Part shown: piece by piece, positions 21,898 through 45,158 of the stretch
How the letters are laid out: each line of letters starts with the position of its first letter
How positions within the stretch are numbered: position 1 is the stretch's first letter
DNA from: Branchiostoma floridae
Taxonomy: Eukaryota > Chordata > Leptocardii > Amphioxiformes > Branchiostomatidae
Reading direction: 5' to 3'
Length of the DNA stretch: 64,000 nucleotides
NCBI RefSeq assembly: GCF_000003815.2
Contig: NC_049993.1
Span: 3,666,518-3,730,517 of the forward strand
Program-made: the position numbers and the translations under genes
The notes under the pieces: model-generated
The model's input: only the letters and a program-made list of their open reading frames with translations
What the model was told of the DNA's origin: nothing
The model's database searches: none

Positions 21898-21903
21898 GAT
21901 GGT
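21898..21903. repeat. Polinton target-site duplication, left
   Basis: GATGGT, repeated exactly at 39239-39244. Six-base duplications are standard for Polintons. Confidence 0.9.
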
Positions 21904-22095
21904 AGTAGTATAGTAGGGACACGCTGACTATTATTATTCAGGCGGTGCAAGGTGGTGCAGGTCAGAGGTTATCGTCTGACGGCCTAGTCTAGGGGTATTT
22001 TTCTGAGCTCTGGGTAGGGGTGAAACAGGGGTCAAGTCGACCTTTTGACCCGACAAGGTAACTATGACGACACCCCCCCCCCCGCCCATCTTGTG
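21904..22095. repeat. Polinton terminal inverted repeat, left
   Basis: Inverse of 39053-39238. Begins AGTAGTATAGTAGGG and ends near CCCATCTTGTG. Differences are a few substitutions and the length of a C run. Confidence 0.95.
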
Positions 22096-22145
22096 AGACA
22101 TGCCCTTATTTGGCAAAAAAGGAGCAAGACTGCGCTATAAAAAGA

Positions 22146-22847
22146 ATGGCACAAGGCATCCTACCCGAGTTCCCAGTGAACAGCCTGGGGGACGCCAAGC
22201 TTGTTAGCAGCATGTTCAAGACCAGAGCCGTCGAAGATGACCCGATGGAGATAGACGAACCGTGCGCGACTTGCGAGCAGCAGCAAGAGGGCCTCACTTC
22301 GATATACTCACCATGGAACAAATCGTGGGAATTACGACTGCCGATAGGTGGGCAGGCGTACCTGACTGTAGGACTTTTCAGGGATAAACCGACGGTTTCA
22401 GTTCGACAGTTCTATCGTCCCAACCCGGCCGATCTTTACGACATACGGCCCGGGAATCAGGCAATGGTCATGACCCCCGAACAATGGCAGGCCCTCAAAC
22501 GCAACATGTCGAATGTATCTGCAGCGCTGCTGGATTTCAGGTTTGCAGCGACGTCACACAACACGGCAACGTTCTTGCCTCGCTGGTTTCACTTGGACGG
22601 TGTGCTGTACGCCGTTGTGGGGCTCTTCGGCGGGACCCGGATCGTGGGCCTGGGCGAGTTCTTCCTGCCAAGACCAGGCGAGGCCCCCGACAGCATCTTA
22701 CCCGGCACGAAAGGGATCAACTTGAATTCAGACCAGTGGAGCAAATTGTTAAACACAGTGGGAACGGTCGACCGGTCGCTGGTGGCCCTGGACGACGCAA
22801 AGAAAAATTATATTTGCAAAGACTTAAACGATAGGGGGCTATTTTGA
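22146..22847 (+). CDS. Tandem PC4-like domain protein 1 (Polinton cargo)
   Basis: A 233-residue protein with two copies of a fold resembling the transcription coactivator PC4/Sub1, a single-stranded DNA binder. Copy 1 lies at about residues 62-125 (TVSVRQFYR, then MTPEQWQALK). Copy 2 lies at about 147-212 (GTKGINLNSDQW). Human PC4 has the same order, with IREYW and GRKGISLNPEQWSQLK. The N-terminal about 60 residues are acidic and probably disordered. A TATA-like CTATAAAAAG sits at 22135, so the transcript may start inside this frame and translation at the next in-frame ATG, 22212. It is paralogous to the protein at 23624. Likely role, by inference: binding replicating single-stranded DNA or tuning transcription. 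PC4-like proteins are not part of the standard Polinton gene set as I know it. Confidence 0.75.
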   Translation: MAQGILPEFPVNSLGDAKLVSSMFKTRAVEDDPMEIDEPCATCEQQQEGLTSIYSPWNKSWELRLPIGGQAYLTVGLFRDKPTVSVRQFYRPNPADLYDIRPGNQAMVMTPEQWQALKRNMSNVSAALLDFRFAATSHNTATFLPRWFHLDGVLYAVVGLFGGTRIVGLGEFFLPRPGEAPDSILPGTKGINLNSDQWSKLLNTVGTVDRSLVALDDAKKNYICKDLNDRGLF

Positions 22848-22911
22848 GTGTTGTGGTCTTGACGAAATGGATATATATGTCAACCGGTAACATCTGCTGA
22901 GATCAGTCTTT

Positions 22912-23409
22912 ATGGATACGTTGAAAGCACAAACAACAGACGTCTTTCGTCAGTTATTATATCACAAAGCCCCAGACTTGTTTCCCCGACACCGGCGACG
23001 CCCCAGTTCTGCGGTGTACGTAAAAGTAGTACAATGGGTGGATGCGATCTCGGCGGACGAGGAATATGAAAAGATTATCGACAATTTCATGGCCAACGTA
23101 CCCAACGCGAGGGATGGGCTGAAAATGGTACTCGAAAAAGTACTGCAAGAGGAACGATTAAACTGGGGTCGACTCGTTACCGCAATGTCTTTCGCCGTGG
23201 ACGTGTGTACGCACGAACGGTATGAAAGAAATACCGACGCCATCTCCACCGAGGTAGCAACGTTGATTTGCGACTATGCGGGAAAATGGTTGTTACGCCA
23301 ACGTGGATGGGACGGATGGCTTGAACGTCGGCGGCACGACAAGTACCCGTCGTTTGTACAGTGCCTCTGTTGGTTTCTCACTGCACGCGTTTGCATCATC
23401 GTGACGTAG
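22912..23409 (+). CDS. Bcl-2-like apoptosis regulator (Polinton cargo)
   Basis: A 165-residue protein with the signature of the Bcl-2 family. A BH1-like segment at about residues 77-98 contains LNWGRLVTAMSFAVDV, where NWGR is the family hallmark. A BH2-like segment at about 126-137 reads WLLRQRGWDGWL. A weak BH3-like stretch lies at about 41-55 (VDAISADEEYE). A short hydrophobic tail at about 146-165 (FVQCLCWFLTARVCIIV) could anchor it in the mitochondrial or ER membrane. The length is typical of compact viral Bcl-2 proteins. The gene is intronless and lies between the two PC4-like genes on the same strand. Viral Bcl-2 proteins usually block host cell death, and that is the likely role here, though pro- or anti-death function cannot be read from sequence alone. 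Confidence 0.75.
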   Translation: MDTLKAQTTDVFRQLLYHKAPDLFPRHRRRPSSAVYVKVVQWVDAISADEEYEKIIDNFMANVPNARDGLKMVLEKVLQEERLNWGRLVTAMSFAVDVCTHERYERNTDAISTEVATLICDYAGKWLLRQRGWDGWLERRRHDKYPSFVQCLCWFLTARVCIIVT

Positions 23410-23623: not shown

Positions 23624-24382
23624 ATGGACGACTCAGTGATTTATCCGCAAGATCTCCAATATTGGAGGACACTGCCCGCGTACACCGGGCTTTCTAAGCC
23701 TCCACAGGCGGACGCAGCGACGCAGACGTCACCCCGGCACGACGGAGCCCGGCCGCCGCCAACTGCGGACGTACCAGACTCTTGGCGCGCGACCGACTCA
23801 GCCCCGACCGTTCAACAACCCCCGACATCGGAGGTTCAGGTTATCAACGAGGTCGACCGAGTAGAAGTCAGGTTCCCTCTCGGCGGAGACGTATTTATTA
23901 CCATCGGCCGTTATAAGGGGAAACCGCTGGTGGCTGTGCGGAGGTTCTATCGACCATGTCCCGGGAAAGACGTGTGGAAGGCCGGTAAACAAGGGCTGGT
24001 CCTAGCGCCAGAGCAATGGCTGGCACTCAAACGCAACATGAGCAGCGTGTCGTCAGAGCTCCTGGCTTGCGGGTTTTCATCCATGCACATATCCTACAAG
24101 TACAACGGGAGCACGTTCCCACCCAGCCGTTTTGACCTGGGAAACCAACGATATGCCATCGTGGAGCTGTTCAGAGGGGAAGCGGTCGTGAATCTACGAG
24201 AGTTTTTCAGACCGGATGCAGATCACGACAAACTTCTCCCGACCAAGAGAGGGCTCAACCTATCAGCGCCGCAGTGGGATGTCCTGGAGGAATGGGCAGA
24301 CAAGATCGATGCCGTCCTGAAAACCGTCCTTGAGCAGAAATTGCTGTCCAGCAAAGGCCTGGCCGAAATCGCGAACCAGTGA
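23624..24382 (+). CDS. Tandem PC4-like domain protein 2 (Polinton cargo)
   Basis: A 252-residue paralogue of the protein at 22146. An 80-residue proline-rich leader is followed by PC4-like copy 1 (about 80-143, LVAVRRFYRP and LAPEQWLALKRNMSSV) and copy 2 (about 168-232, VVNLREFFRP and KRGLNLSAPQW). Copy 1 is most like copy 1 of the neighbour and copy 2 like copy 2. The double-domain architecture therefore arose first and the whole gene was then duplicated. Function as for its paralogue: single-stranded DNA binding or transcription control, by inference. Confidence 0.75.
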   Translation: MDDSVIYPQDLQYWRTLPAYTGLSKPPQADAATQTSPRHDGARPPPTADVPDSWRATDSAPTVQQPPTSEVQVINEVDRVEVRFPLGGDVFITIGRYKGKPLVAVRRFYRPCPGKDVWKAGKQGLVLAPEQWLALKRNMSSVSSELLACGFSSMHISYKYNGSTFPPSRFDLGNQRYAIVELFRGEAVVNLREFFRPDADHDKLLPTKRGLNLSAPQWDVLEEWADKIDAVLKTVLEQKLLSSKGLAEIANQ

Positions 24383-24733
24383 TTTGTCACGAAATAAACT
24401 TCATGTGGTACAAACATGGGCAAAGATCTCATTGAAGTGTCTGTGTGTGCAAGTCATTTTATTGCTATAGTAGGTTCGTTCAATAAGCGTGTAAGAGAGA
24501 GAGAGAGTAGGATAGAGAGAGGCGCATGTGCATAAAAGAGGTGCATCTGCATAAAAGGGCTAGCGTTCTAACGAAACAGTCAGTCTCAGAGCTGGAGAGG
24601 CACAAATAACACGTATGGGTTGTCTTCCCCAAATCGCGTTCTTGGGCGAGCACTTTTGTGAGATAGTAGACCGCGTTCATTGCGCGTGCATGTGTATGGG
24701 AGGCCGAATATTTACGTTCTTTCGTGGTTTGGG

Positions 24734-25915
24734 ATGGTTTCCAAGAATCCCGGGAAGAGGAGGAGAACGAAGGCGGGAGGGGGAAGCAAGCGCTACCCCA
24801 CCAATCCTGCCGAGGAATGGCACGACGTCCTCCATAGGGTTTACTACGACCCCAGACATCCTGCAGGGTACGGTGGAGTAGGACGGCTCCATCGAGCCGT
24901 GCGTAACAAGTACGGAGTCACCCGAAAACAAGTAGAAGCGTGGTTGCGTTCTCAAGACACACACACCTTACACAAGCCCATCAGACGACGTTTTCAAAGG
25001 AATCGCGTGATAACCGGAGGAATACACGATCAGTGGCAGGCTGATCTCGCCGATATGTCATCCCTCTCTCGGCAGAATGACGGGTATCGCTATCTCCTGA
25101 CCTGCATAGACGTATTTTCTAAATACGCGTGGGTCGTTCCCATCAAAGACAAGACGGGCCCCACCTTGGCAAAAGCCTTTCAAACCATCATAGCCGAGGA
25201 CGAGCAAAAGCCCAGGTGCCTGCAAACGGATCAAGGCACGGAGTTTCTCAATCGACACGTCCAGTCTCTATTGAAGAAGGAAGGGATCAAATTCTTTACG
25301 ACATTTAGTGTGGAAACCAAAGCCAGTGTGGTGGAGAGGTTCAATCGTACGCTGAAGACGAGAATGTGGAAATATTTCACCGCAAAGAACACGCACCGGT
25401 ACATCGACGTCCTGAGCGACCTGGTGTGGTCCTACAACCGCTCCTACCACCGCAGCATCAAAATGGCTCCCATCGAAGTGAACGAGAAGAACGAGGGCCT
25501 CGTGTGGCATACCCTGTACGGAGAAGATGACATCTCGAAACCTCGGAAAGGGAGAAAACAACCGCCGTCGTTCAAATTTCGAGTCGGAGATTCGGTTCGA
25601 ATCAGCAAATCTAAACTGCGCCTGGAAAAGGGCTATACGCCTAATTGGACCACAGAGATCTTCATCGTCTCCGAACAAATTGCCCGCCGGCCTCCCGTTT
25701 ATCGCGTGAAAGATTACGACGGAGAAGTTTTGAGAGGGACGTTTTACGAAAAGGAGTTGCAGAAAGTTACGAAAAAAGACGACGACGTCTATCAAGTAGA
25801 GGACATCCTGGACACGCGAAGGCGAGGCAAAAAGAAGGAGTTCTTTGTGAAATGGAAAGGATATCCGGCCAAGTTTAATAGCTGGGTGAGAGAAGAGGAC
25901 ATGGTTCCAATATGA
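24734..25915 (+). CDS. Polinton integrase with chromodomain
   Basis: A 393-residue retroviral-type DDE integrase, the enzyme that inserts the element. The catalytic core has D104 (DQWQADLADM), D166 (QTDQGTEF) and E201 (VVERFNRT), with exactly the D-35-E spacing. A basic N-terminus (KNPGKRRRTK) precedes it. An SH3-like basic segment follows (FRVGDSVRISKSKLRLEKGY), then a C-terminal chromodomain (about 345-393; FFVKWKGYPAKFNSWV), which may guide insertion to modified chromatin. The start is the first in-frame ATG. Two CATAAAAG TATA-like boxes lie at about 24530 and 24551. Confidence 0.95.
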   Translation: MVSKNPGKRRRTKAGGGSKRYPTNPAEEWHDVLHRVYYDPRHPAGYGGVGRLHRAVRNKYGVTRKQVEAWLRSQDTHTLHKPIRRRFQRNRVITGGIHDQWQADLADMSSLSRQNDGYRYLLTCIDVFSKYAWVVPIKDKTGPTLAKAFQTIIAEDEQKPRCLQTDQGTEFLNRHVQSLLKKEGIKFFTTFSVETKASVVERFNRTLKTRMWKYFTAKNTHRYIDVLSDLVWSYNRSYHRSIKMAPIEVNEKNEGLVWHTLYGEDDISKPRKGRKQPPSFKFRVGDSVRISKSKLRLEKGYTPNWTTEIFIVSEQIARRPPVYRVKDYDGEVLRGTFYEKELQKVTKKDDDVYQVEDILDTRRRGKKKEFFVKWKGYPAKFNSWVREEDMVPI

Positions 25916-25966
25916 TAAATATCGACGCACGCCCGCACATCGGGCATTGCTCAGACGTACCTCGCC

Positions 25967-26770
25967 ATGGCCAATTCGTTTTACGTCACTCTCCCCAGCG
26001 ATGGGAGTATGGACGTCTTTCAAGAAAACACGGTCACGAATTATCGGACCAAACTGGCTCAGCCCGTAGAACTGTCGGGAGAGTGGGAGGTGGGGCTCGT
26101 CGAGATACAATATCCTCACAGCTGGCTGAACGTTCGGGAAGGCGAAAACACGTTGGTGTATTACATGGTGGACGAAAAAGACGAAGGAAATGGTCGGGAA
26201 TACGAGATCGTCAAAATCTCCGCGGGGCACTACAAGGACGTTTTGCAACTCTTGAAAAGCCTGAACGAGGCCGCCTCCATACGTTACCCTAGCCTCTTCA
26301 AGCAACACGACATGTTTGCTTATGACAGCATCACGAAAAGAGTGACCATGGTCCTGCCTCCCATGGCGCAAAATTCGACGACAACGAAGACTTATCTGAC
26401 GGGGCCATTGGCCGAAAAACTGGGATGGGGAGTAAAAGGCGCCATATACGGAAGCTGGGTACAGGCACCACGTCCAGCCGACCCCGACCTGGGCTTTCAC
26501 TCCCTGTACGTGTACGGGGATGTCGTGCAGCATCGTCCGATGGGTGGACAGAAGGTCCCTCTGCTGAGAATCGTCAAAATCGAGGGCCAAGACGGGGACA
26601 TCGTCGATCACCCTATCCCCACGCCGCACTACATACCCCTGGCCAGGAAACGGTTCGAAACGATTGAAATCGATATAAGGAACGACCTCGGCGAACCCGT
26701 GCCATTTGTGCAAGGGCGAGTGATCGTAACACTTCACTTCCGACAGAGGCGGTCTTCCTACTTTTCCTAG
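25967..26770 (+). CDS. Polinton minor capsid (penton-type) protein
   Basis: A 267-residue protein matching the single-jelly-roll penton or minor capsid protein of Polintons by its start (SFYVTLPSDGSMDVFQENT), by the typical WEVGLVEIQYPHSW segment and by its place before the major capsid gene. It would form the capsid vertices. It overlaps nothing, and the next gene begins 3 bases after its stop. Confidence 0.8.
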   Translation: MANSFYVTLPSDGSMDVFQENTVTNYRTKLAQPVELSGEWEVGLVEIQYPHSWLNVREGENTLVYYMVDEKDEGNGREYEIVKISAGHYKDVLQLLKSLNEAASIRYPSLFKQHDMFAYDSITKRVTMVLPPMAQNSTTTKTYLTGPLAEKLGWGVKGAIYGSWVQAPRPADPDLGFHSLYVYGDVVQHRPMGGQKVPLLRIVKIEGQDGDIVDHPIPTPHYIPLARKRFETIEIDIRNDLGEPVPFVQGRVIVTLHFRQRRSSYFS

Positions 26771-26772
26771 AT

Positions 26773-27183
26773 ATGACTGGACAGCGAGGAGGACAGTTGC
26801 CGGTGTATTACGGACGGTCTATGCAGCGTGGTTACGGGTTGGGAGGGATTTTTCGCGGTTTGCTCAGATCCGCCGTACCCCTACTGAAACGAGGGGCCCA
26901 AAATGTGGGAAGACAGGCTCTAAAGAGCGGTATGGATTTAGCTCAAGACGTCTTAAACGGTCAAGGGGTCAAACGCGCTGCCAAACGTAGAGCCGGCGAG
27001 TTTGGACAACGTCTGTTGTCTGGGCAGAAAAGAGCCAGGGTGCGTGCACCAGTGGGGCAAAACAAAGGAAGAGGGGCGGGCAGGGGAAAGAAGCCATTAA
27101 AACGTGGAACGAGACCGCGCACAGCCAGTCGCAAGAGAGCCGGTGCACAGCGCGGACGTACCTCTCCCGATATCTTCAGCTAG
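26773..27183 (+). CDS. Small basic virion-type protein
   Basis: 136 residues, strongly basic and rich in Gly, Arg and Lys. The N-terminus has a GYGLGGIFRGLLR segment and an amphipathic helix (LKRGAQNVGRQALKSG). The C-terminus is an Arg/Lys-rich tail (KRGTRPRTASRKRAG). Similar small genes sit between penton and major capsid genes in Polintons and resemble adenovirus core or membrane-lytic precursors (pX or pVI), which the viral protease cleaves. That role is inferred from composition and place. Confidence 0.6.
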   Translation: MTGQRGGQLPVYYGRSMQRGYGLGGIFRGLLRSAVPLLKRGAQNVGRQALKSGMDLAQDVLNGQGVKRAAKRRAGEFGQRLLSGQKRARVRAPVGQNKGRGAGRGKKPLKRGTRPRTASRKRAGAQRGRTSPDIFS

Positions 27184-27199
27184 TCACGATATAAACGAC

Positions 27200-28537
27200 A
27201 TGGCCCACATTCACCCCCTGTCGTGTTCCTGCACCAAATCAGAATTGGATCTGTTTGAAGTACCACCAACTCAGACGACCATAACGGACGGTAGATGGGT
27301 AGAGTATCATCCGGTGGCCAGTCTCGCCGAGTCTTCCCCGATAGAATTTGACATTCCTGGAGCGGGAGAAGAATTTACGGACCTTTCCCAGACGAAATTG
27401 TACGTGAAAGCCAAGATCGTTCTCCCTAACGGCAACGACCTGCCGGACAACGCCAAGGTAGGCCCGGTAAACCTGTGGCTTCAATCGCTCTTCTCGCAAG
27501 TCACGGTTACGGTCGCAGGCAAGGACATAACGGATTCCACTAATTGCTATCCATATCGTGCCTACCTGGAGACGCTGCTAAACTTTGGGTCTGAAGCAAA
27601 GCAAACGCAGCTGACCTCTGAACTTTTCTATCAAGACACGCCGGGACGACTTCACTTGGTCGACCCCTACCCGAACCCGGCAGATCAGGACGCAGTGGCA
27701 AATGAAGGATTGGTGAAGCGTGCCAACATGACCCGCAACAGTCGCGAAGTGGACCTCATAGGACCGCTACACGTCGACCTGTTCCATCAAGACCGCTATT
27801 TGCTCAGCAAAGTCGACGTTAAAATCAAGCTGCACCGATCGAAACATCAATTCTGTCTGATGTCGCCTGGAGATCAGTTCAAAATTGTCATCACGGAGGC
27901 TGCCGTCTTTCTGAGAAAGGTCAACCTGTTACCCACCTATCAGCTGTCCATCGAAAGTCAACTCAACAAGCAGACGGCCAAGTATGCCCTTAAAAGGGTG
28001 CAATTAAAACCTTTTACAATTCCCCGTGGTAATCATTCAGTGTCGAGCGACAATCTGTTCCTGGGACAGGTCCCCAAACGCGTGGCGATCGCTCTGGTGG
28101 ACAACGCAGCATTCCAGGGGTCTTTCGGTACCAACCCCTTTAACTTTCAACACTTTAACTTGAACTACATCAGTCTCTGCGTCAATGGGCAGGAGGTGCC
28201 TCACAAAGCGCTGACACCCAACTTTGCCGAGGGACAGTACGTCAGATCCTACATGAACTTGTTTGGAACGACAGGCAAGCAAGGGCAAGACAGCGGGAAC
28301 CAGATCGCGAGAAGTGACTACGACAAGGGCTTCACGGTGTGGTGTTACGATCTAAGTCCTGACCTCTGCGGCCTCGGTGGGGACCATTTTAACATAATCA
28401 GACAGGGAAACCTTCGCCTGGAGCTGCATTTTGCACAGGCTTTGGATCAAACGGTGGTGGCGGTGGTCCTCGCTGAATTCGACAATCTCCTGGAGATTGA
28501 CAGGCAGAGAAACATCAGCTTTGACTACAGCAACTAG
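27200..28537 (+). CDS. Polinton major capsid protein (double jelly roll)
   Basis: 445 residues from the ATG at 27200 (MAHIHPLSCSCTKSELDLF). It shows the recognisable Polinton capsid features: VPPTQTTI near the start, IEFDIPG..EFTDLSQTKLYV, the VNLWLQSLFSQVTV segment, and the C-terminal GNLRLELHF..LVVAVVLAEFDN-like strands (here VVAVVLAEFDN). Host genome annotations often call such proteins F54H12.2-like. It would assemble as trimers to form the icosahedral shell. The protease gene follows after 2 bases. Confidence 0.9.
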   Translation: MAHIHPLSCSCTKSELDLFEVPPTQTTITDGRWVEYHPVASLAESSPIEFDIPGAGEEFTDLSQTKLYVKAKIVLPNGNDLPDNAKVGPVNLWLQSLFSQVTVTVAGKDITDSTNCYPYRAYLETLLNFGSEAKQTQLTSELFYQDTPGRLHLVDPYPNPADQDAVANEGLVKRANMTRNSREVDLIGPLHVDLFHQDRYLLSKVDVKIKLHRSKHQFCLMSPGDQFKIVITEAAVFLRKVNLLPTYQLSIESQLNKQTAKYALKRVQLKPFTIPRGNHSVSSDNLFLGQVPKRVAIALVDNAAFQGSFGTNPFNFQHFNLNYISLCVNGQEVPHKALTPNFAEGQYVRSYMNLFGTTGKQGQDSGNQIARSDYDKGFTVWCYDLSPDLCGLGGDHFNIIRQGNLRLELHFAQALDQTVVAVVLAEFDNLLEIDRQRNISFDYSN

Positions 28538-28539
28538 AG

Positions 28540-29085
28540 ATGGACACGAGACAGATGTACGCCGTCTTGCGGAGCGACAAGAACACGGCACCTCACCTCC
28601 GCGGAGTCTTTGCTTCAGATCGGCTTCCGAGGCGTGTACGGGTCTACCCGAGCGCTTACGTCGTTAATACTGACCCAAGCAATAAGCCCGGACAGCATTG
28701 GCTGGCCATCTATTTCGACGGGGAAGGACGGGGCGAATTCTTTGATTCTTATGGCCGTGCACCTAATCTGTATCCCCGCCCTATACTAAGATTTTTGCGG
28801 AGAAATACGCGCCTTCCGTGGCTTCGTAACCAGCGCCAGATACAAGCTAGACTGTCTACCACCTGTGGGCAGCACTGCCTGTTCTACCTCTTGCACAGAT
28901 GCAGAAATATTCCGATGACTAACATAGTCGATATGTTTAGCAGTGACTTAGAACTGAACGATGTATCCGTAGCAGAGTTTATAGAGCGTCATTTTGATAT
29001 AGATGCTCCCGTTGTCGACATTGAGCTCGTCATGCGACAGATAGCGAGAACCCTTGAAGACTTTGATCGAGCGTTTAACGACTAA
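28540..29085 (+). CDS. Adenain-like cysteine protease
   Basis: A 181-residue maturation protease of the adenovirus-protease family. Catalytic set: His53 (GQHWLAIYFD), Asp69 (FFDSYG), and Gln111 and Cys113 (TTCGQHCLFYL). It would trim capsid and core proteins during assembly. It ends the rightward gene block, and an AATAAA at 29158 lies shortly after. Confidence 0.9.
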   Translation: MDTRQMYAVLRSDKNTAPHLRGVFASDRLPRRVRVYPSAYVVNTDPSNKPGQHWLAIYFDGEGRGEFFDSYGRAPNLYPRPILRFLRRNTRLPWLRNQRQIQARLSTTCGQHCLFYLLHRCRNIPMTNIVDMFSSDLELNDVSVAEFIERHFDIDAPVVDIELVMRQIARTLEDFDRAFND

Positions 29086-29317
29086 CGTATGCATGGTTAA
29101 CCATATACTATATGATATAGCTTTAGAGTGTAGTATTGACTGTAGCAAGTTGTTATGAATAAATATCATGAAAACGTACATCGGTCATAGCGTGGTTTCT
29201 TTTCCGCACACACCCAATCACACACACACACACAATCGCACACACAAATAAATGGAAAACCAGTCTCTATATCTAGGCCCGCGTCCGAATCACGGGAAAC
29301 TTTACTTGTTAACGCTA
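29086..29317. other. Convergent intergenic space inside the Polinton
   Basis: An AATAAA lies at 29158 on the plus strand, and a (CA)n tract runs over 29220-29245. It separates the rightward and leftward gene blocks. Confidence 0.6.
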
Positions 29318-30133
29318 TTAAGTCCACGACATTTCCGAGAAGCTCCCTTTTGCAGATGACGTAGTGCCTGCACTGCCAACTTTCCACTTCTTTCCTGGGA
29401 TTCTTTGAGCGACAACACGACGTCGCTTGGGTTGGGGTGTTGGGAGGACGTCTTCGCTCTCTCCGTCTGACAGATCTTCACCACGGGCGGTGCGGCTCTT
29501 GTGACGTTGGATCACGGACAGCCGGGTCGGGTGCCTGATAGCGGCTTCCGGCGCATTGATGCGTGCCAGGCCCCTGGCGAAAGATTGCCAGCCGGTGGGA
29601 TTGAACCCGTGCCTCCTTTGCATCGCGTCTCTAATCAAGTCGGACACATTTGAGCCTGGGACCACTTGTTTGTTGTAGAGCAACTGTCCCTGATCGTTAT
29701 AACCGATGATGTCACCGCCCTTGTGTTTGATGACGTTGAGCATCTGTCGTGCGCGAGCTTTCATGGTCTTGGGAAAGGCCTCCAGTATGCTCTTGTCTTC
29801 TTTGCCGCCGGCTGCGGGGGTGCTGGGGGACTTTTCATCCGTGGTGGCGTCCGTGGTAGCGGTGTTGGTGACGGTAGGAGGTGAGGACAATACCCTGACC
29901 GTGACGGGCTCTGTGCGACGCTTATCTCTGTACGTCAAATAACGCTGCAAGAGTTGTTGGTACAAGGTAGCTTTCTCGTCGTCCGGAAGATCGGGTCGTT
30001 CCATCACCGATTTCATTTCCTCGTCCAAGGTAACGGCGGTCTTGACCAGGGGAGAGGTCTGTTCTTGTTGCTTAGCCTGAATCGTTGATAGCAATTCTTG
30101 CGGCACGAGTGCCATCTTTCTGCTGTGTTCCAT
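29318..30133 (-). CDS. Conserved Polinton protein of unknown function, 271 aa
   Basis: Not assignable to an enzyme family. The N-terminal half is polar with likely helices (DEEMKSVMERPDLPDDEKAT) and a Thr/Ala/Pro-rich linker. A compact region at about 130-185 (AFPKTMKARARQMLNVIKHK and FNPTGWQSFARGLARIN) and a basic tail (QPKRRRVV) follow. Proteins with the GWQSFARGL-type segment are common next to Polinton ATPase and polymerase genes. It probably belongs to the virion or replication set. Confidence 0.6.
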   Translation of the reverse strand: MEHSRKMALVPQELLSTIQAKQQEQTSPLVKTAVTLDEEMKSVMERPDLPDDEKATLYQQLLQRYLTYRDKRRTEPVTVRVLSSPPTVTNTATTDATTDEKSPSTPAAGGKEDKSILEAFPKTMKARARQMLNVIKHKGGDIIGYNDQGQLLYNKQVVPGSNVSDLIRDAMQRRHGFNPTGWQSFARGLARINAPEAAIRHPTRLSVIQRHKSRTARGEDLSDGESEDVLPTPQPKRRRVVAQRIPGKKWKVGSAGTTSSAKGSFSEMSWT

Positions 30134-30148
30134 GACGACAGAGCGGCG

Positions 30149-30484
30149 TTACTTCCGTCCACCTCCAAATAAGGAACTAATTGCATTAATAATAGGACTG
30201 AGTAGAAGAGACAGGAACCCACCCTTCTGGATCAACGTCTGTCTTTTCTTGGTCAGGGGAACCTTCTTATCGCCAAGCTGACGCAGAGTGGCTTTGTGCC
30301 GAGCCAGACCTTTCTTCTGGGCCGGTGTGAGACGAACGTTGCCCTTCAAGACGTTGTGCGTGCAGTCACAAATCGATTTCAAGAGATCGTTAGGGGCGGA
30401 CGACAGAATGGCTTTTCGCAATTTCGGGTTGGCCTTGCTCAACACCCGGAGACAATCGGCGTGACGATGTAACCTCTTCGACAT
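30149..30484 (-). CDS. Small conserved Polinton protein, 111 aa
   Basis: Basic, with LTPAQKKGLARHKATLRQL and a C-terminal hydrophobic stretch (FLSLLLSPIINAISSLFGG) that could be a membrane or amphipathic helix. Similar small proteins with NVLKGN..LTPAQKK recur in Polintons and in many animal genome annotations. Function unknown. The start is the first in-frame ATG (30484). Confidence 0.6.
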   Translation of the reverse strand: MSKRLHRHADCLRVLSKANPKLRKAILSSAPNDLLKSICDCTHNVLKGNVRLTPAQKKGLARHKATLRQLGDKKVPLTKKRQTLIQKGGFLSLLLSPIINAISSLFGGGRK

Positions 30485-30528
30485 CTTCGGCAAAATGAGA
30501 CCGTGGTGTGGACGAACGGAACGTTTTA

Positions 30529-31176
30529 TCACTTTCTCAGGTACACTTGGGGTTGCGGCGTCAGCATGTTGGTTCTCACGCGCAGGTCCTCAGGCGTTTC
30601 GGGATGGAGGTCAAGGAAGAGATGCCCGTACGTCGTCTTATTCACGGCGTCTTCGTAACACTCTCGAAGAAATTTACCGTGCCCCGGGTACATTTGCCGC
30701 GCTAACGTGGTGATCATGCTTTGATCCCTTGGCGATTTGAACAGGACGATGTAACTGGAGTTTAGAGAAATGGTTCTTAGGCCTTGAAAGAACAAATTCT
30801 GAACGAGAAAAATCACCGACAAGTCACGATGACGGCTGGCTCGGGTAAACAGTTTTGTAACTCTTTGATCCGTATCCTTGGCCGACTCAATCATGAGATC
30901 ATCAATCACTAGCGCGTTGCGGCATGACGGCTTAATGACGTCATTCCAATTGTTGGGAAGGCCCTCTACGAACTGAACTTTTGACCCTAGTTTCGAAGTC
31001 AGCTCGCGGTGGATCTTGTCCTGAAACTCCGAGTACAGCCATACAACGTGTTCAAAAGGCCCGGGATCAAGCCAACTGGCTCCCGTCGTCAGTAGTTTTT
31101 GAGCAAAATAAGATTTTCCAGAGCCAGAACAGCCCGCTAGAACCATTCGACATGGATGGTGTATTCTCGCATCCAT
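30529..31176 (-). CDS. Packaging ATPase (FtsK/HerA type)
   Basis: A 216-residue P-loop ATPase that would drive DNA into the capsid. Walker A is GCSGSGKS (residues 15-22). Walker B is ALVIDD (88-93), followed by a conserved helix and LSVIFLVQNLF, which fits the sensor region. This is the standard Polinton genome-packaging motor. It lies just downstream of polymerase B on the same strand. Confidence 0.9.
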   Translation of the reverse strand: MDARIHHPCRMVLAGCSGSGKSYFAQKLLTTGASWLDPGPFEHVVWLYSEFQDKIHRELTSKLGSKVQFVEGLPNNWNDVIKPSCRNALVIDDLMIESAKDTDQRVTKLFTRASRHRDLSVIFLVQNLFFQGLRTISLNSSYIVLFKSPRDQSMITTLARQMYPGHGKFLRECYEDAVNKTTYGHLFLDLHPETPEDLRVRTNMLTPQPQVYLRK

Positions 31177-31254
31177 ACCCGCAAATGACGTCAAGTCTGG
31201 CCAGCAGTACTATTTATGCGTCTACTATACTATTATAATGACACGCTAGCCTCT

Positions 31255-34200
31255 CTAAATATCGAGAGGGAGAGTGGTGACCCCGTCATGCTTAACCTTT
31301 CGTTTTGGATAGAAGTACGAAAAGGCATCGCGGATTTGCGTGTACGTGTGTATTTCGCTCTCGCGCACGCGAAACCCTTTGTTGATGCCCTGGCCGCTTT
31401 TCTTGGTCTGCAAGACGTTCAGGTACTTGAGGTGGTTAATGTCGTTACATCGTTTGCTCACCCCTTTGCAACTGAACTTGTCCTCATTCGTGTCATCTCC
31501 GCCGAAACAGTAATACGTTTTACTGCACAGACCGACTATACCGCTCCCGGACCATTCTTCTTTGAACAGCCCGGGAGTGCGCTTGTCGTAAGCCGCGTTC
31601 TGCTTGGTGTCTGTTCGGGGAAACCAGTCAGATTTCTCGCGGTTGTACGACTCCCGCATGTCGGGTTTGATCACGGCCTCCAGCTTGTCCGCCGAGATGG
31701 CGATATAAGCGGAGTCCGTGTCCATTTCACAGTACTGGAAATCGGACACGTCCACGAACTTCAACATGAAGTCGTAGTAAAAGGCGAGCATACGCAATTT
31801 GGCGTATTGGTAAACGAAGAAGCCAATTTGCATGGGAAGGTTAAACTTGATGGTGCGCTTCGCCGACTCAATTTCAAAGAAATTGTCGTCGTTGACCACG
31901 ATCAGATGCCGAAACCGCAAAGTGTTGATCTTTCGAGTGGCGGTCACGACGTCTTGGCAATACTCGACGTCTGTTTGTTTTTCTTTGTTGGTGACCGTCT
32001 TGCCGTAACCCGAATTACCGATCAGCTTCATGGTGTCGGCGATGATCTTCTTGGCTTTGTCCTCGTCGCCCTTGCGCCTCGCATCGCTAACGGCATCTCC
32101 GAAAGCTTTAAAACTCGGCTTGGGTCTGTACTCCATCACCTGGTAGATGCGAGTGACCTTCAAGCCGTGGTCGAGATACCAGTTGAGCAAGGGCGAAGCC
32201 AAGAGGATCTTTTGACCGAACATACTACCGATGAGCGATCGCCTGGGCTTGGACATAATGCGATGCTTCTCGGCGTACTCCTTCATGTGCTCGCCAATGT
32301 CGTCGATGGAAATCTCGACGTTCTTAAATATCGGAGGCATTTCGGCGAAGCGCGACTTGAGATCCGCGGGGACCTCGATGTCGCATTCCACCGTTCCAAA
32401 CAACTCCTTCGAGCGAACAGCCTGGAGGACGCGTTCGCCGGTCATGTCGGGAAGATGTTCGGTGGGAGTCTTGCGGCCTTCCAAGAAAGACGCCAATCGG
32501 ACGTCGGCTCTTACCAAGTTTCTCCACTGACATTCCCACATTTCGGTGACCGTATACCCACACGCTCGCAGGTACTCGGTCGTTTGGGCCGTTTCCGCCC
32601 GCAAAGTCGCGAAAGACTTGCCGCGACGATCGTTGAAGACTTGGCCTCTGGTCAAGGAGCAGGCGTGACCGTGCCAATAGCAGCCGTGAAACTGAAAGAT
32701 TTGCCCGGTGTCCGAACAGAAACCGTCCACCGGAATTCGACGTGACCCGATGCGCTTTTCGGTGCTATTGAATTTGTGGCGAATGGCGAGCTTCCGCTCT
32801 TGGGCCACCCAGTCTAACCAGTCGACGGCCATTCGTCCCCACTGAGGTGTGGAATATTCTCTTTCGAACCCCGTGTCTTCTCTCCGCCGAATGTAATGGC
32901 CGGAGGGCATGTCCTGCATCAGGGCCCACAGATATAACGCATTCGCGTCGTAGCCAATGACCTTTTGACAAGGTTTCGGTTCCCTGCCCGACAATGTCAT
33001 CTCGTCGGCCCTGATGTAGGTCTTGCCCTTCTCGTGGTACCTATGAAAGATGATGCTGGGTCCCCCCACTATGTTGTCTTTATACAATCTGTACACGTCT
33101 TCATTGTCTGGAACAGTAAAGTAAGTATCGCGCGGCAGGTTCATGAAAAGGTACTTAAGTGTTAGACCCGGGACGCTAATGCCGTCCTTAAACATGTCGA
33201 TGCCCTTGTCCTGGTAGAACTCTGTCATCTTCTGCACGGCTTCCACCATGGGGCTAACGTCCTTGTTGTTGTACCTGTAGGAACAAAGATTAGTCGTGAT
33301 TTGTTAAGTCCAACCGCTCCGCTCAATCTAGGTTATCGTCTAGGTGTTACGAGATAACGTACAACGACCTACCATATCAAGAAGTCCCTCATGGTCGTCA
33401 TGCCCTGCTCTTCCCACACGCGCTGACAGTACAGATAATCCTCCTCCGAGATGTCTGACTGGCGTAGGTTGCTATGGAAGGCGGCTCGTGGTGGCAGCCG
33501 CGTGTGCTCCAACTTGTCCAAGCTGTCCATCCATTCGTACCTGTCATGTCAATGGGACAAAAAATAACACGTCATAGCACGCTCTAACACAATGTCGGTC
33601 ACATCACATCAGAATGCAAACAAAAGAAGGCCGTCTACTTACGGAAAGAATCCCTTTGTCTCCTGGCAGCCGTACGCCTTCAGCAGGATCGAGTAGGAGA
33701 AGCCCGGCGCCACATAATTGATGAGATCCAGGAATTTCAGGTCGTCCGTTTCAATCGACATGTACGTGTTGTTCTTCTTGATGGGGCGGAGTTTGCTGGT
33801 CGATCGCAGCAGCAGCGGGAGGAACACTTTTTTGATGGCGTTAAGGTCATACTTCCCACCGTTGAAACTAAGGACCACCAGCTGACTCATGTACTTGGTC
33901 AGTTCCTCAATCAGTTTGGTCATGTAATGTTCTTTCCGGCGTTTTTCTTTTCGCTTCGCCTTGTCAACTATGTCTTTCGGGGATTCTTCTTCCGTTTCTT
34001 CTTCTTTTTCCTCTTTCTCCAAATCCCTTTGCCGAATTTCTTCCATCTTGAGCACCGCCCAGTGAAACTTTTCCAACAGAAGGGAGTACGCCTTACGACT
34101 GATTTGCTGTAGGAAATTCAACAAGTCTTCAGCCACTTTTGTCGGGTCGCCTTCGGACACGAAACATTCTGGGTCGGTGTAGTCAGGGACGTTTGAGCAG

Positions 34201-35846
34201 ACGCTCACGCTCAAGAGTTCGTGCGCCGCCTCCCACGTCATCTTGTCCGTCTTTTGATCAGTCAGTGGTTTTAGAAGACATTCTATATCGAAGCAGGCGC
34301 GGTAGGGATAGTAACGATCTTCTTCGGGGATGACGATCCCTTCGTCCTGCAGCTTTTCAAAGATGGTCTGCGGTAGATGGTAGGCGCCTCCCGGATACTC
34401 CTTGTTCACCTTACCGTCGCACGTGCGAATGTGCCTTTCGCAATGACCGCGGTGCGGCCATCTCTTTCCGCATTGCGGACACGCGTATGACTTGGCGTAA
34501 GTCTTAAAGTCCTTAATGTAACTGTAATGTTGCTCGCAGAGATTCAGATACATCGTATTATTGTGTGTAGACAGGGGACGCCTCACCAACTCCGCAAAGA
34601 AATCGCCATCTTCGGCGCCTTCATCGTTATTGTGCTGTAGAGCATAGACGTACACGTCGACCTCGAACAATGTCTCTATGTCCTCTAGATGTTTGAGAGA
34701 CACGCCTTTGAACTGCCTGGGCGTTTTACCCACCCACGCCAGGTACTCTTTGAAGAGTTTTTTGGTCGTACCTTCCAGTTTGGTGCGATCGCATTGTCGA
34801 TGGAGTGCCAGGCACCTGAAAAAGCAGAGATTGTCCGTGTACGGGCCGTTCGTTCCGCTATAAAGGGCGATGATGGACCTGCTATTCCTGACGTAGTCTG
34901 TCAGCGTCCCGGGGGCACCGATGGGATGGTCTTTGATCTTGTGGACGTAAAACGTGACGTTCACCATCTTCTGCAGGACCGTTTTGCTGTTGGGGCGCTC
35001 CTGGCGTGCCTGCTCCATGTGATCGACTTCTTCGATCTTGTCCAGGAACCGTCGAATACCATCCTCGTTTTCCACTTGGACAGGTTCTGGCAAAAACCCG
35101 TTATTATTTTCACAAGGGTAAAAATATCGCAGTGCCCCCGTTTCCCCGTCCTGGAGAATGAACCCGAACGACAGGTTGATCTTAAAGACGGTTTGCTGGT
35201 CGCCAAAAATGGCCCATACGTTGTCGGCCAGATCGCTAGGATTTTCGGACTCCAGTCTAAAGTTGTACGTGTCCTGGATGTTTTGTCCCCGCTTGAACTG
35301 CGTCCTGATCATGGACCATTTCTGTCTGTACAGATTTTGGACGGCCCCGGCATCGTCTTGGGGAATCAACTCTTCCGACACGTCCTCCGGATCTTCCGCA
35401 AAAGGAAACTCGTCGTCGTCTCCTGCGGGTTGAATGTGGCGTCGTTTCGCTCTGGGCCCGTCTGCTGTGGAAACCCTCTTTTGTGGACGGGAGGTAGACG
35501 CCACGGGGTGTGTGGCTTCTCTGTGCACCTGCACGGCGTGGGCAGTGTCAAACGCCACGTTGCACGGCTGGCACCAGAACGTGGGGCCCGGCTTGGGTGT
35601 ATCGTGCAGCCGCCGATGTTGCAGTAGGTTGTCCCGTCTAGGAAACTTTTTGCCGCAAAAATCACACTCGTGCGTGGGTGCGTTCGGGTCGTGGGACTTT
35701 TGGTGACGCTTGAAACTGTCGAGACGGTTAAAGGTTTTGTCGCAGATCTCGCAGCGGTAGGTCGTGGTGTCGTGGGACTTTTGGTGACGGGTGAGACTAC
35801 GTTTTTGGGCAAAGGTTTTTCCACACGTATCACAAGTGAAAGCCAT
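31255..35846 (-). CDS. Polinton DNA polymerase B (protein-primed)
   Basis: A family B polymerase that copies linear DNA from a protein primer. The N-terminal part has four C2H2-type zinc fingers (first FTCDTCGKTFAQKRSLTRHQ), then an OTU-like module with YTDNLCFFRCLA and LNLCEQHYSYI, then another C2H2 finger. Exonuclease motifs follow: FDIECLL (Exo I) and SFNGGKYDL (Exo II). The palm has motif A (YDANALYLWAL), motif B (LIGNSGYGK) and motif C (MDTDSAY), then the KTYYCF segment. The coding sequence appears split by two short GT-AG introns near 33.3 and 33.6 kb, with a probable leader intron upstream. The start is the ATG before AFTCDTCG. A TATA-like box lies near 36.6 kb on the minus strand. Confidence 0.95.
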
Positions 35847-36249
35847 GGCTGTTTGACGGTAGTGTCGATCATTGGTAGGTTCTGAAAGAACATACAAAGC
35901 TTTGGTTGAAAAGCTGAATTCGTATCTACTCGCCCCTCTGGTTGTTTCACCAGTGCTTTTGTCATGTTGACCACACACTCATCAGTATTCCGTGACAAAC
36001 AAAGCAAGGGCTGATATTGCATCGGTGGTCTTTTGTCACCAAACAAAACTGGTTTGCCGGTACGGAATACTTGTTTCGGTATAGCGGAGGAAACGTTCGG
36101 TACAAAAACTGTGACACACGTACTGTTACGTTTCAATATTGGTAAAGACATACGTAGCATTCGACATAACAAATACTGATGATATAGCTTATCACATAAT
36201 CTAGCGTGTATAGTTTTACTAAAAAAATTACTACAGCCATGACACAACA

Positions 36250-37351
36250 ACTACAAGAGTTTTCGTACCGACACGAATCCCCTAGTGTTAAACATAACTC
36301 GACACTCCACACGAAAGCTAAACGAAAATGCCCTGGTACAATCCTTGAACAGTTTCTTCAAAACACGTTTTGTTGCAGAGAAAATATTGTAACATATAGT
36401 CTAGTTTTACACTGGTTATAAACAACTGTCGCTTGTTTGAGCGATTCTATCAGATGATCAAAGATATGTAGAAAGTGTTTTTCCACTTACCGAAAGAACG
36501 AGACGCTCCGTCCGTAGCGGTACTGCGGTAATTAATCCGGGGCACAGCTCGGGTATAATCCAAAGTACGGGGTGACCACCACGTTAACTGACCAGTGCCT
36601 CGCTCGTGTTCTTTTTATACTGAAAAGCTTGGCTGGCCCGAATATTGGCATGTCCGTTCACGTTGAATGATGCACTTCCGGTGGCTGTTCTCCCTAAGAC
36701 GGAAACAAAGCGGCCGTGCCACTTCCGCCCAAGTGAAATCAGTGAGGCGAAACGGTGACAAAACGGTGAACCTCTCCCCGCTCTGCGCTGGCTCTCTATG
36801 GCAAGGCGTAGAACCCTTTTGATGATGTTGTTGATAAAGTCAGTTACATTTCCGCCTTCCCTCCCAATTTCCAGAAGACTGGGCCGGCCATGTCACAGTG
36901 TACGGCAAACGTTAAGTCCGGCAAGCGCTTAATTCCCCGTTCGTTGTCTTATCTTGGTGCACCATGGGCCGTGGTCGCTGCCGTACGACCTCTCCTTGAA
37001 GGAGCCCGTTAGTTCTCATGTCTCTAACCACGTTAGCGGTGTGCACACAGCTGGGTCTATTGTCCCTCCCCGTCTTTTGTGTCCTGTTTTCCGGCGTAAC
37101 ACAATGGCTTCAATACACTGTGCCCGGGGATAAAGGAAAGTCTCCGACTTTCATCTGGGAGGGCGGGCGGCTCAATTGTGTTGGACCAACCCCCCTCTTG
37201 AAGCTAGAAAGTGATGATGCAGTGACACTGTGTGTTGGTAGCTTGTGTCATTCACTCAGTGTTGTTGGAAAATAACTGGTTCTGTATGTTTCAGTCCGGC
37301 AAGAGAGTGCGTTAAGGCGGAGTGGGTGTCCTCAAGTGGGGTTTTGTGTTC
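36250..37351. other. Noncoding part of the Polinton right arm
   Basis: Holds the polymerase promoter side, then about 700 bp without a recognisable gene. ACGTAACACAATGGC-type words occur near 37096 and 37640. Confidence 0.5.
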
Positions 37352-37560
37352 CTAGTGATGTATTGATGTATGGCTATAGATACCAGTCCGTGGAAGGCCT
37401 TGTAGAACTAGCCTAGACTGACACCGCCTTTCTTGCAGGGTCGGCCAGCCCAGCTTGTTCTGTAGGTACGACACGCTGGTGGTGTTCCTGTAGTCCTTCA
37501 AGACATACCTAGCAGCTCGTTTCTGTACACATTCTGTTTTGTCCATTAGCACATTTGTAT
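37352..37560 (-). mobile_element. LINE reverse-transcriptase C-terminal fragment inside the Polinton
   Basis: The minus strand gives CVQKRAARYVLKDYRNTTSV followed by LGWPTLQERR. This is a standard segment beyond the RT core of Jockey/L2-type LINEs (xVQRRAARFVxxDYRxxSSV..LxWPxLxxRR). It is a short truncated scrap, 380 bp upstream of the reductase gene. It shows that LINE-bearing DNA, probably host-derived, is present in the element's right arm. Confidence 0.75.
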
Positions 37561-37804
37561 TGGCATATTGACGCTTCTGTGGGTACAGTTAGCTGTTCCA
37601 AGGCGTATGCACACTAAGCCGGGGTTGCCACTTGTTTCCGACGTAACACAATGGCAGTGTTCAGCGTCGGTGAGGTCAGCTCGGGGCCGTGTTTTGGTGG
37701 GTGGTTGTCATAGTTACCTCGGTGGGCCAGAAGGTCAGCCTGACGGCCGTTTCACCCCGACCTGAGCTAAGAAACTACCTATTCCCTAAACTCTACATGT
37801 CTGG

Positions 37805-37850
37805 ACCAATCAGAGGACCGACTCGTATCATACAATATATATACATATAT
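37805..37850 (+). promoter_or_regulatory. Likely promoter of the reductase gene
   Basis: GACCAATCAG (CCAAT box) at about 37803, followed 35 bp on by a TATATATACATAT stretch. The ATG at 37941 lies about 100 bp downstream. A CCAAT box with TATA is common in S-phase gene promoters. Confidence 0.4.
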
Positions 37851-37940
37851 GCAAATATATGGTGACATGCTGGGGTATATCTAATGGTATGAGGGTGCTA
37901 GCGCTCGCTTCATTTTGTGAGTCACACACACAACCGCAAG

Positions 37941-38978
37941 ATGCTTTCAGCGCAGCCACCGAAGTCTAACCAGCTGTCCGTACTGAAGGTCTCTGTAGAC
38001 CGAGAGAAGCAGTGTGAGCCCCTACTGCGTGAAAACTCCAGACGCTTCGTCATTTTTCCCATCCAGTACCACGACATCTGGCACATGTACAAGAAGGCCG
38101 TAGCATCATTCTGGACAACGGAGGAAGTTGATCTCTCTAAGGACTTGGCGCATTGGGAGAGACTAAATGACAACGAAAAACACTTCATCAAACACGTCCT
38201 GGCATTCTTTGCAGCTAGTGACGGTATAGTCAATGAAAATCTGGTTGAGAGATTCACCAAAGAGGTGCAGGTGACTGAGGCAAGGTGCTTCTATGGCTTC
38301 CAGATAGCCATTGAGAACATCCATTCTGAAATGTACAGTCTCTTAATCGACACCTACGTGAAGGAGCCACATGAGAGAGAGCGTCTGTTCAGTGCCATTG
38401 AGACCATACCGTGTGTACAAAAGAAGGCTGACTGGGCCCTGAAGTGGAGTGGCGACGAGGGGAGCACTTGGGGGGAGCGTGTAGTTGCGTTTGCCGCTGT
38501 GGAAGGGATCTTTTTCTCGGGGGCCTTCGCAGCAATTTTCTGGTTAAGGAAAAGAGGACTCATGCCGGGGCTGACTTTCTCCAATGAGCTGATCAGTAGA
38601 GACGAGGGTCTACACACCGACTTTGCCTGTCTTATGGTCAGCTACCTGGTCAATAAGCCTAGTGAGGAGCGCATTCACCAGATTATCGACGATGCTGTTA
38701 AGATTGAGCAAGAGTTCCTGACGGAAGCTCTTCCCGTGAGATTGATTGGGATGAATCAAGACCTGATGAAACAGTACATTGAGTTTGTCGCAGATAGGCT
38801 GCTGGGAGAACTCATGTGCAGTAAGATTTACAATAGCGAGAACCCCTTTGACTTCATGGAGAACATTTCTCTGGAGGGAAAGACCAACTTCTTTGAGAAG
38901 AAGGTGGGAGAGTACCAGAAGATGGGGGTGATGTCTTCCTCTGAACAGCAAAAGTTCACGTTGGATGCTGCCTTTTAA
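37941..38978 (+). CDS. RRM2: Ribonucleotide reductase small subunit (R2), intronless, inside the Polinton
   Basis: A 345-residue class Ia R2 subunit, which holds the di-iron tyrosyl-radical cofactor and works with R1 to make dNTPs. All key residues are present: D94 (SDGIVNEN), E125 and H128 ([12 protein letters not shown]), radical Tyr132, E188 ([10 protein letters not shown]), E222 and H225 (RDEGLHTDF). The C-terminal tail FTLDAAF, which docks on R1, is kept. The sequence is very close to animal RRM2 and RRM2B over its whole length. The N-terminus is short and lacks the KEN degron of vertebrate RRM2, so it should not be removed outside S phase, like p53R2. There are no introns although animal RRM2 genes have many. 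AATAAA follows the stop at 38989, and no R1 gene is in the element. It lies inside the right inverted repeat, so it is element cargo. Confidence 0.95.
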
Positions 38979-39052
38979 AAGTAGAGAATAAAAGAACGAA
39001 AAAATCAGACGGTCGTTGTCATGTGTTTTTTTTTTCTTTGTGACAACTAGAC

Positions 39053-39238
39053 CACAAGATGGGAGGGGGGGTTGTCATAGTTACCTAGGAGGGTCAAAAG
39101 GTCGACTTGACCCCTGTTTCACCCCTACCCAGAGCTCAGAAAAATACCCCTAGACTAGGCCGTCAGACGATAACCTCTGACCTGCACCACCTTGCACCGC
39201 CTGAAAAATAATAGTCAGCGTGTCCCTACTATACTACT
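39053..39238. repeat. Polinton terminal inverted repeat, right
   Basis: Inverse of 21904-22095, ending in TATACTACT. Confidence 0.95.
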
Positions 39239-39244
39239 GATGGT
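39239..39244. repeat. Polinton target-site duplication, right
   Basis: GATGGT, matching 21898-21903. Confidence 0.9.
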
Positions 39245-44348: not shown

Positions 44349-45158
44349 CGAGAGAGAGAGAGAGGGGGGGGAGAGAGAGAGAGAGAGAGACCCATGAAAT
44401 TTCCACAAAGAGACCAATGCTGCTTTGTGCATATTTGTTGGCATAAACTTTATTTATTCGTATTAGCAAACAGCCCTGCCGGACCCCAGGTACGAAATCT
44501 GACTGTGGGAAAGAAATGATAAATCTGAAAGCACACACCATCATCATCATTAACGCTCGCAATTTCTACTTTGTCTCTACAGAACACCATGCAATTTCGC
44601 TGCTGGGACGCAACTACCGCGAGGGACCGACTGAGTGCTCTCCAAATCTCCCTCCCGAACCTCGCCCCCTACCGGCCTACTGGCGACATCCACCGCCTGC
44701 TACCACCCTCCTTCTCCGCTGACGTTCTGTCCAAGGGCCTGGTGTTTGTTGACTGGGATCCGCACAACCTTTCTGAGTCCAACATGAATAAGTTTGTAAA
44801 AGCAGGTTGCTACATCCTTGTCGACTCGACCGAACCGGCCGCCAGGAGTCTTAGTTTCGGCGGGAGTTACATGACACCCCGTGGCAGGGTGTATCACATA
44901 GACATACACTGTAAGGACGAGGGTTTATGTAAGGCTCACATCATAACCCACGTGAAGAACGCATGTAGTCAGTACACAGGCATGATAACGTTCAATGTTA
45001 TGGTGATTGATAAGGGGTTAAAGGATGTAGTGATACAGTTTTGCGTGCAGTATCTGCAGTTCCAACATCTTCCGCATGACCATACTTTTGTTCATAATGA
45101 CCTTGATCTTGGAGCTTACCAGAAATCGGCAGAACCTGTACCTCAGTCTAAATATTGA
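41401..45158 (+). CDS. NAT16: NAT16-like histidine N-acetyltransferase, four exons
   Basis: A GNAT-family acetyltransferase related to vertebrate NAT16 (histidine N-acetyltransferase), which transfers acetyl from acetyl-CoA to free histidine in the cytosol. Exons are 41401-41562, 43098-43229, 43890-44027 and 44583-45158. All junctions are phase 0 with GT-AG ends, giving 335 residues against about 370 in human NAT16. Exon 1 has the family start (DYEVVMNM and FDYLPAKFHNYVDDPD). Exon 2 has acetyl-CoA motif A (MRAAKKWQGKGV, R75, G82, G84). Exon 4 carries the NAT16-type C-terminus (LVFVDWDPHNLS, SLSFGGSYMTPRGRVYHIDI). The start is the first in-frame ATG, just after a possible acceptor site. Intron 1 contains a LINE scrap and a 606-base gap. 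The substrate is inferred from family similarity only. Confidence 0.85.
41629..41765 (+). mobile_element. LINE reverse-transcriptase core fragment in NAT16-like intron 1
   Basis: Codes YGVPQGSILGPLLFIIYVNN followed by MSMYADDTVIF, the RT motifs around the catalytic ADD of Jockey/CR1-group LINEs. It is in frame by chance with the preceding exon read-through. It is a short scrap with no endonuclease. Confidence 0.85.
42206..42811. other. Assembly gap (606 N)
   Basis: Within intron 1 of the NAT16-like gene and flanked by a poly-G run and poly-T, which may have caused the break. Confidence 1.
44058..44395. repeat. (TG)n then (AG)n microsatellite
   Basis: A long TG-rich tract (44100-44348) followed by (AG)n with a G run, in intron 3 of the acetyltransferase gene. 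Confidence 0.95.

Follow-up and report, generated by a model that had tools for sequence, protein, structure and literature searches.

The window, a 64-kb stretch of amphioxus DNA, contains a Polinton-type element of ∼17 kb at positions 21904-39238. Its terminal inverted repeats (TIRs), located by end search and BLAST at 21904..22095 on the forward strand (starting with AGTAGTATAG) and at 39053..39238 on the reverse strand, are 93.75% identical across 192 columns of the BLAST alignment. The outermost 25 nt are exact at both ends of the element and were found nowhere else in a search that allowed up to 3 mismatches. The hexamer GATGGT borders the element on either side (21898..21903, next to the left TIR starting at 21904, and 39239..39244) and was read directly as a target-site duplication (TSD); TIRs with a 6-bp TSD, the criterion for Polintons/Mavericks, are present in the window element and in other copies. 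The G+C content of the element (22200-36250) is 51.7%, as compared to 40.2% and 39.3% in the flanks, which resemble animal nuclear DNA and hold both a P450 match and a reverse transcriptase of LINE type. The P450 match lies at 7769-8335; an ORF with a Hisat_C domain is found at 44571-45158 and an open LINE-type ORF of 1259 codons at 60190-63969.

Next to the right TIR, at 37941..38978 on the forward strand, lies an intronless gene for a ribonucleotide reductase (RNR) small subunit, R2, of 345 aa (ATG at 37941, stop codon at 38976-38978), assigned by Pfam, alignments and tree. The Pfam profile Ribonuc_red_sm is covered in full (E 3.6e-116). A first-pass annotation of this DNA had placed a complete R2 between the polymerase and the right inverted repeat, within the target duplication, and an intact class I ORF is indeed found there. 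An AATAAA on the same strand (38987..38992) starts 9 nt past the R2 stop codon, and the GC3 of R2 (0.626) is inside the range of the other element genes (0.541-0.702). Upstream of R2, at 37699..37774 on the forward strand, the inner TIR segment recurs as a diverged copy in direct orientation (80.5% over 77 columns, E 4e-14). Such a TIR-like match just before R2 is present in 7 of the 15 other copies read, and may be a former right end or have a regulatory role.

The other forward-strand genes are, in order, a PC4-like (transcription coactivator p15) protein (22110..22847; Pfam PF02229, E 1.3e-12), a Bcl-2 family protein (22912..23409; Pfam PF00452, E 9.1e-11), a second PC4-like protein (23624..24382; PF02229, E 5.9e-22) and a retrovirus-type integrase with a chromodomain (24680..25915), in which both rve (E 5.2e-13) and Chromo (E 2e-11) score above the Pfam cutoff. 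The Bcl-2 homologue matches PDB chains of Mcl-1 and A1 from E 1.1e-7 and contains NWGRL and WDGWLE, which we take to be BH1-like and BH2-like motifs; tblastn matches it at 71-94% in six copies (L055, L063, L064, L067 in pieces, L068 and L069) and at 33% in L060. Two ORFs without a match in Pfam or PHROG follow: one of 267 aa (25967..26770), a minor capsid candidate by position only, and one at 27104..28537, a major capsid candidate by position and size, for which a single-sequence structure model was uninformative (mean pLDDT 30). The last of this series is an adenovirus-type cysteine protease with a weak match (28540..29085; Pfam PF00770, Peptidase_C5, 19.5 bits, below the cutoff of 21.3).

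The reverse strand encodes an A32-like packaging ATPase (30529..31194; Pfam PF04665, Pox_A32, 25.1 bits, cutoff 22.8) and a PolB-like polymerase in two parts. The C-terminal part (31255..33249) matches DNA_pol_B_2 at 21.7 bits, below the cutoff of 25.8, and has 10 other full-length matches at ≥95% in the genome; the PolB assignment follows mainly from its position and this genomic family. The N-terminal part (33639..35978) carries C2H2 zinc fingers (zf-C2H2, E 8.5e-18, 3 stretches), and two candidate GT-AG introns of 98 nt (33275..33372) and 102 nt (33541..33642) were read directly on the same strand, between the two parts. Neither the capsid candidate nor PolB found a relative when searched against viral contigs. 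Polintons are usually described with a gene set for replication, integration and virion formation, and their defining traits include a protein-primed PolB and double jelly-roll major and minor capsid proteins. The window element resembles the Polintons/Mavericks of animals (adintoviruses, class Polintoviricetes) in its rve integrase, A32-like ATPase, PolB-like gene, weak adenovirus-type protease match, TIRs and 6-bp TSD, and differs from those described in carrying a host-derived R2.

Aligned with PDB chains that we take to be mouse RRM2 and human RRM2B, the window R2 is identical at 255 of 324 and 250 of 322 positions, in both cases without gaps. It has the residues aligned to mouse D139, E170, H173, Y177, E233, E267 and H270, as well as to W103, D266 and Y370, whose roles in R2 function we presume. 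The metal ligands and radical tyrosine noted in the first-pass annotation are all there, every checked position being kept in the mouse alignment, and all 16 copies agree with one another and with host RRM2 at the ten active-site positions examined. The R1-docking tail noted there is also present, reading FTLDADF in 15 of 16 copies and in the host, but is altered to FTLDAAF in the window copy; this D344A change is the sole private amino-acid change of the window R2 in the core. The gene is intronless and lacks the KEN degron, as had been stated. Since host RRM2 as modelled also lacks KEN (DREN is found at the end of its exon 1), the missing KEN cannot by itself be attributed to the element. 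A Pfam scan of 14 ORFs of the window element (R2 included) showed no R1, in agreement with the description of an R2 without R1.

R2 in related elements of the amphioxus genome

A search of the assembly (513,431,437 bases in 431 contigs) yielded 73 R2 matches. We compared 16 copies, the window R2 and 15 others (14 full-length and one starting at residue 38), using one arm only of a palindrome. None of the 16 contains an internal stop, although as best-scoring matches they are biased toward intact genes. In 11 of the 16 copies, including the window, PolB N-terminal sequence (≥287 aligned residues) precedes R2 in the opposite orientation, and an outer TIR is found 260-478 bp past R2 in 14 of the 16. 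Many of the remaining R2 matches are fragments, often in inverted pairs. By eye we counted 13 inverted pairs, palindromic elements with two right ends. L059 (2147-8688) is almost wholly palindromic and L054 is palindromic from 1976. Because L059 has its own 6-bp duplication (GTCCAA), palindromic forms may integrate; near-perfect palindromes may also be assembly products.

With the C-terminal half of PolB as query and identity ≥93%, we identified 14 PolB loci, 12 of which have R2 on the expected side. The gene thus recurs on the same side in other copies, a check that the first-pass annotation had proposed. At one locus (C12:19.85 Mb) the link is less sure: R2 is ∼11.6 kb from PolB, with no PolB N-terminal part in the piece read. 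At L073 (C12:5.27 Mb), a deletion running from the TIR-like segment to the last codon has removed R2, leaving the stop codon and 3′ sequence in place. At L072 (C16), the matching sequence ends ∼77 bp before an assembly gap, so this locus is counted as neither R2-positive nor R2-negative. No R2 match accompanies three PolB loci that are more distant (68-71%), either in the 9-kb stretches read on that side or in the genome search, and two of these loci have an end-like motif (2/17 mismatches) 2.2 and 1.2 kb from the PolB match. In these data, R2 is the mark of one Polinton lineage.

The TSDs of the elements differ: GATGGT in the window, ACTACC on C158, GACGTA on C17, GACGCG on C11 and, allowing one extra AGT at one end, GGCCGG on C9. 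The 6-bp TSDs agree in 5 of the 6 elements with both flanks readable, the C4 element being a mismatch; in the remaining elements, one end was not found or the flank consists of N. Separate insertions with different 6-bp TSDs counter the reservation in the first-pass annotation that R2 might be absent elsewhere and misassembled here. The triplet AGT is repeated at element ends (L064 near 2212, L047 near 5390), and in the C9 copy the two ends read AGTAGTAGT and AGTAGT, a pattern that might arise from sliding-back during protein-primed replication.

Probable origin of the element R2 from host RRM2

The host RRM2 gene (L042, C2:25.89 Mb), modelled from splice signals and homology, has 12 coding exons and encodes 411 aa. 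Exons 2-5, whose lengths are multiples of three, encode an N-terminal tail and are absent from the window R2. In the 14 copies aligned, the exon 1 sequence runs straight into exon 6 with no extra codon: the host exon 1 segment MLSMHSPKSTQSVQQDFSALKISADRENQ has a 24-letter counterpart in the window, and the exon 6 sequence reads DEPLLREN in the host and CEPLLREN in the window. The window R2 is identical to host RRM2 at 279 of 320 positions (87%), as compared to 275 of 320 between host and mouse RRM2. The element gene apparently was copied from spliced host RRM2 mRNA.

The protein tree, of 41 rows, unites the Polinton R2s with host RRM2 in one clade (96/88) that excludes the other R2 gene of the host, three R2s from mammals and 28 from viral contigs. 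The placement of the Polinton R2s that the first-pass annotation left to phylogeny is thus with amphioxus RRM2, and the eight Polinton R2s used in this tree are one clade (100/100). At synonymous sites the copies have diverged from the host by 1.08-1.67, close to saturation, as against 0.07-0.28 when the window is compared with the other copies, which makes the capture appear old in relation to the copies examined. The other R2 gene of the host (L043, 2353-3667) is divergent, ∼69-70% identical to the query, and tandem exon-end repeats adjoin it.

Large viruses were also considered as a source of R2, and found no support. The R2s of 33 viral-contig loci reach 69% identity at most, and the 28 of these loci placed in trees, which hold no poxvirus, herpesvirus or iridovirus R2s, fall outside the clade of animal and Polinton R2s. 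Five viral loci (L027, L028, L029, L031 and L033), partial or weaker, were kept out of the trees. Other element genes were sought by tblastn in the 33 viral R2 loci, and none was found except for one PolB match (29% over 107 aa, L012).

One intact, intronless R2 is longer than the others (L057, C13:9.118 Mb). Between its exon 1 and exon 6 sequences it has ∼36 residues that resemble host exons 2, 3 and 5 (VVKNVIGENRCQTITRSQDVEEVRKQL in L057, VARKVLGESQSQNIIRSSDIKEIKKQV in the host), with no support from this copy for host exon 4. The score of this tail against host exons 2-5 was reached by ∼5 of 1000 shuffles; a host-like 5′ leader, with a score reached by ∼18 of 1000, is only suggestive. L057 has parts of the R2 leader and 3′ end in common with the window. 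No terminal repeat or PolB is near it in the flanks read, where the sole Polinton part is a left end ∼10 kb off, facing away (L060). L057 could be what is left of an older element, or else a retrogene close to the donor.

The placement of L057 differs between trees. In the DNA tree it is basal with weak support (86/63), and the AU test does not reject (p 0.111) a grouping of L057 with the 11 copies that fall outside the group of the window. The protein tree nests it among copies of that kind (starred branches, 99/94 and 100/86), which would mean that the tail was lost more than once. The exact exon 1-exon 6 junction suggests capture as an exon-skipped isoform, and later loss of the tail is as likely, because L057 keeps a tail like exons 2, 3 and 5.

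Selection, alternatives and proposed function

Across 120 pairs of the 16 copies, the dN/dS of R2 (mean dN over mean dS) is 0.107. The first-pass annotation had called for this comparison across copies, and the value is well under 1, indicating purifying selection. For the 11 copies in which PolB N-terminal pieces were also read (55 pairs) the R2 value is 0.111, as compared to 0.217 for the PolB N-terminal pieces themselves (66 pairs of 12 copies). Variants common to ≥2 R2 copies are 28 nonsynonymous and 64 synonymous, and private variants are 22 nonsynonymous and 40 synonymous. On the evidence of these comparisons, R2 is under purifying selection and has been kept intact. These values also bear on whether R2 is a functionless passenger, a processed retrocopy of RRM2 that inserted by chance near the right repeat of a single successful element and was carried along as that element multiplied. 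R2 is intronless and terminal, the related element L073 has lost it, and many other genomic matches are fragmentary, often in inverted pairs, all of which a passenger would explain. The low dN/dS, also relative to PolB on the shared copies, the invariance of the ten active-site positions and the open frames of all 16 copies (best-scoring matches, which favours intact ones) argue against it, and we consider a passenger improbable. It seems distinctly unlikely that R2 acts mainly by disturbing host RNR as a competing or dominant-negative subunit rather than by supplying dNTPs. The docking tail is altered in the window copy, and a dominant-negative phenotype of an altered viral R2 is described in PMC2900304; against this, FTLDADF is kept in the other 15 copies and the catalytic residues in all 16, as expected of an active enzyme.

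Selection for a host function could likewise keep copies intact, had the host taken over R2 as a cell-cycle-independent, p53R2-like subunit. The intact L057, outside any recognised Polinton, fits such a takeover. We judge it very unlikely, as intact R2 adjoins PolB at 11 loci, beyond a domestication at one locus, and the host already has RRM2 and a second R2 gene. That the association of R2 with the element is an assembly artefact is hardly credible: gaps are found near some loci (L072, L073) and near-perfect palindromes may be products of assembly, but the same arrangement recurs at 11 loci and four further elements have TSDs unlike that of the window.

We think it highly probable that a Polinton lineage captured host RRM2, as a spliced, intronless copy adjoining the right terminal repeat, and kept it across many insertions as a functional R2-only subunit pairing with host R1. 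Sequence comparison establishes the features from which this explanation starts (R2 at 12 of 14 loci, kinship with the host gene, missing introns, the exon 1-exon 6 junction, purifying selection and the active site); passage through an mRNA, pairing with host R1, dNTP supply and escape from turnover we infer. The element R2 most likely forms a tyrosyl radical as cellular R2 does, and its C-terminal tail most likely docks on host R1, a predicted pairing. The hybrid enzyme would raise dNTPs for the element's own polymerase, and the missing N-terminal tail (host exons 2-5) probably loosens cell-cycle control of R2. The host has the motif REN where exon 1 ends, at most a candidate degron. Two observations count against the explanation: the deletion of R2 in L073, by which R2 may be dispensable for some spread, and the D-to-A change in the R1-docking tail of the window R2.

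An element that brings R2 and relies on host R1 is the best-supported reading. As stated in PMC2900304, R2 is short-lived and limiting in mammals and R1 longer-lived, most chordopoxviruses encode R2 only, the R2s of vaccinia and other chordopoxviruses form complexes with host R1, and vaccinia replication depends more on R2 than on R1. Like the R2-only chordopoxviruses and vaccinia with its F4 (PMC2900304), the window element has an R2 close to animal R2, no R1 seen, and a docking tail, which reads FTLDADF in 15 of the 16 Polinton copies. Unlike chordopoxviruses, it integrates, measures 17 kb, belongs to another virus group and carries an R2 from its own host lineage; for the Polinton R2, pairing with host R1 is predicted only, and our trees contain no poxvirus R2s. 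The Polinton R2 has the active site and exon 1 of the cellular RRM2 in the same genome, and differs from that gene in being intronless and 345 aa long, without exons 2-5 in the window copy. It resembles p53R2 (RRM2B), in which the N-terminal KEN-box stretch is also missing (PMC2900304). p53R2 itself is a mammalian cellular paralogue and falls outside the clade that host RRM2 forms with the Polinton R2s.

In titles and abstract openings of the literature, which leave out key adintovirus papers so that an earlier notice is possible, we found no animal Polinton with R2. No word beginning with ribonucle or reductase occurs in the main texts of PMC11071296 and PMC11071308, and none beginning with reductase in PMC6431247. 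The same literature yielded nothing linking adintovirus with Bcl-2, or the KEN box with cyclin F and p53R2.

A broader reading, which we hold tentatively and with somewhat less than even confidence, is a programme for resting cells, in which integrating viruses would combine a host-R1-dependent, tail-stripped R2 from spliced mRNA with a Bcl-2 homologue that delays cell death. The capture and tail-stripping of R2 would then have occurred perhaps more than once, and such a programme, if true, would be a close convergence with poxviruses. Adenoviruses may descend from the Polinton group (PMC11071308). The capture of R2 itself has left an unusually clear record: the donor gene sits in the same genome, introns have disappeared, tail exons are lost and a copy with part of the tail is extant. 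A stably kept, host-derived enzyme of dNTP synthesis would show a Polinton lineage acting on the nucleotide metabolism of its host. The case favours the idea that the Polintons of animals lead a viral life and are not passive transposons, and makes the dNTP needs of Polinton replication testable.
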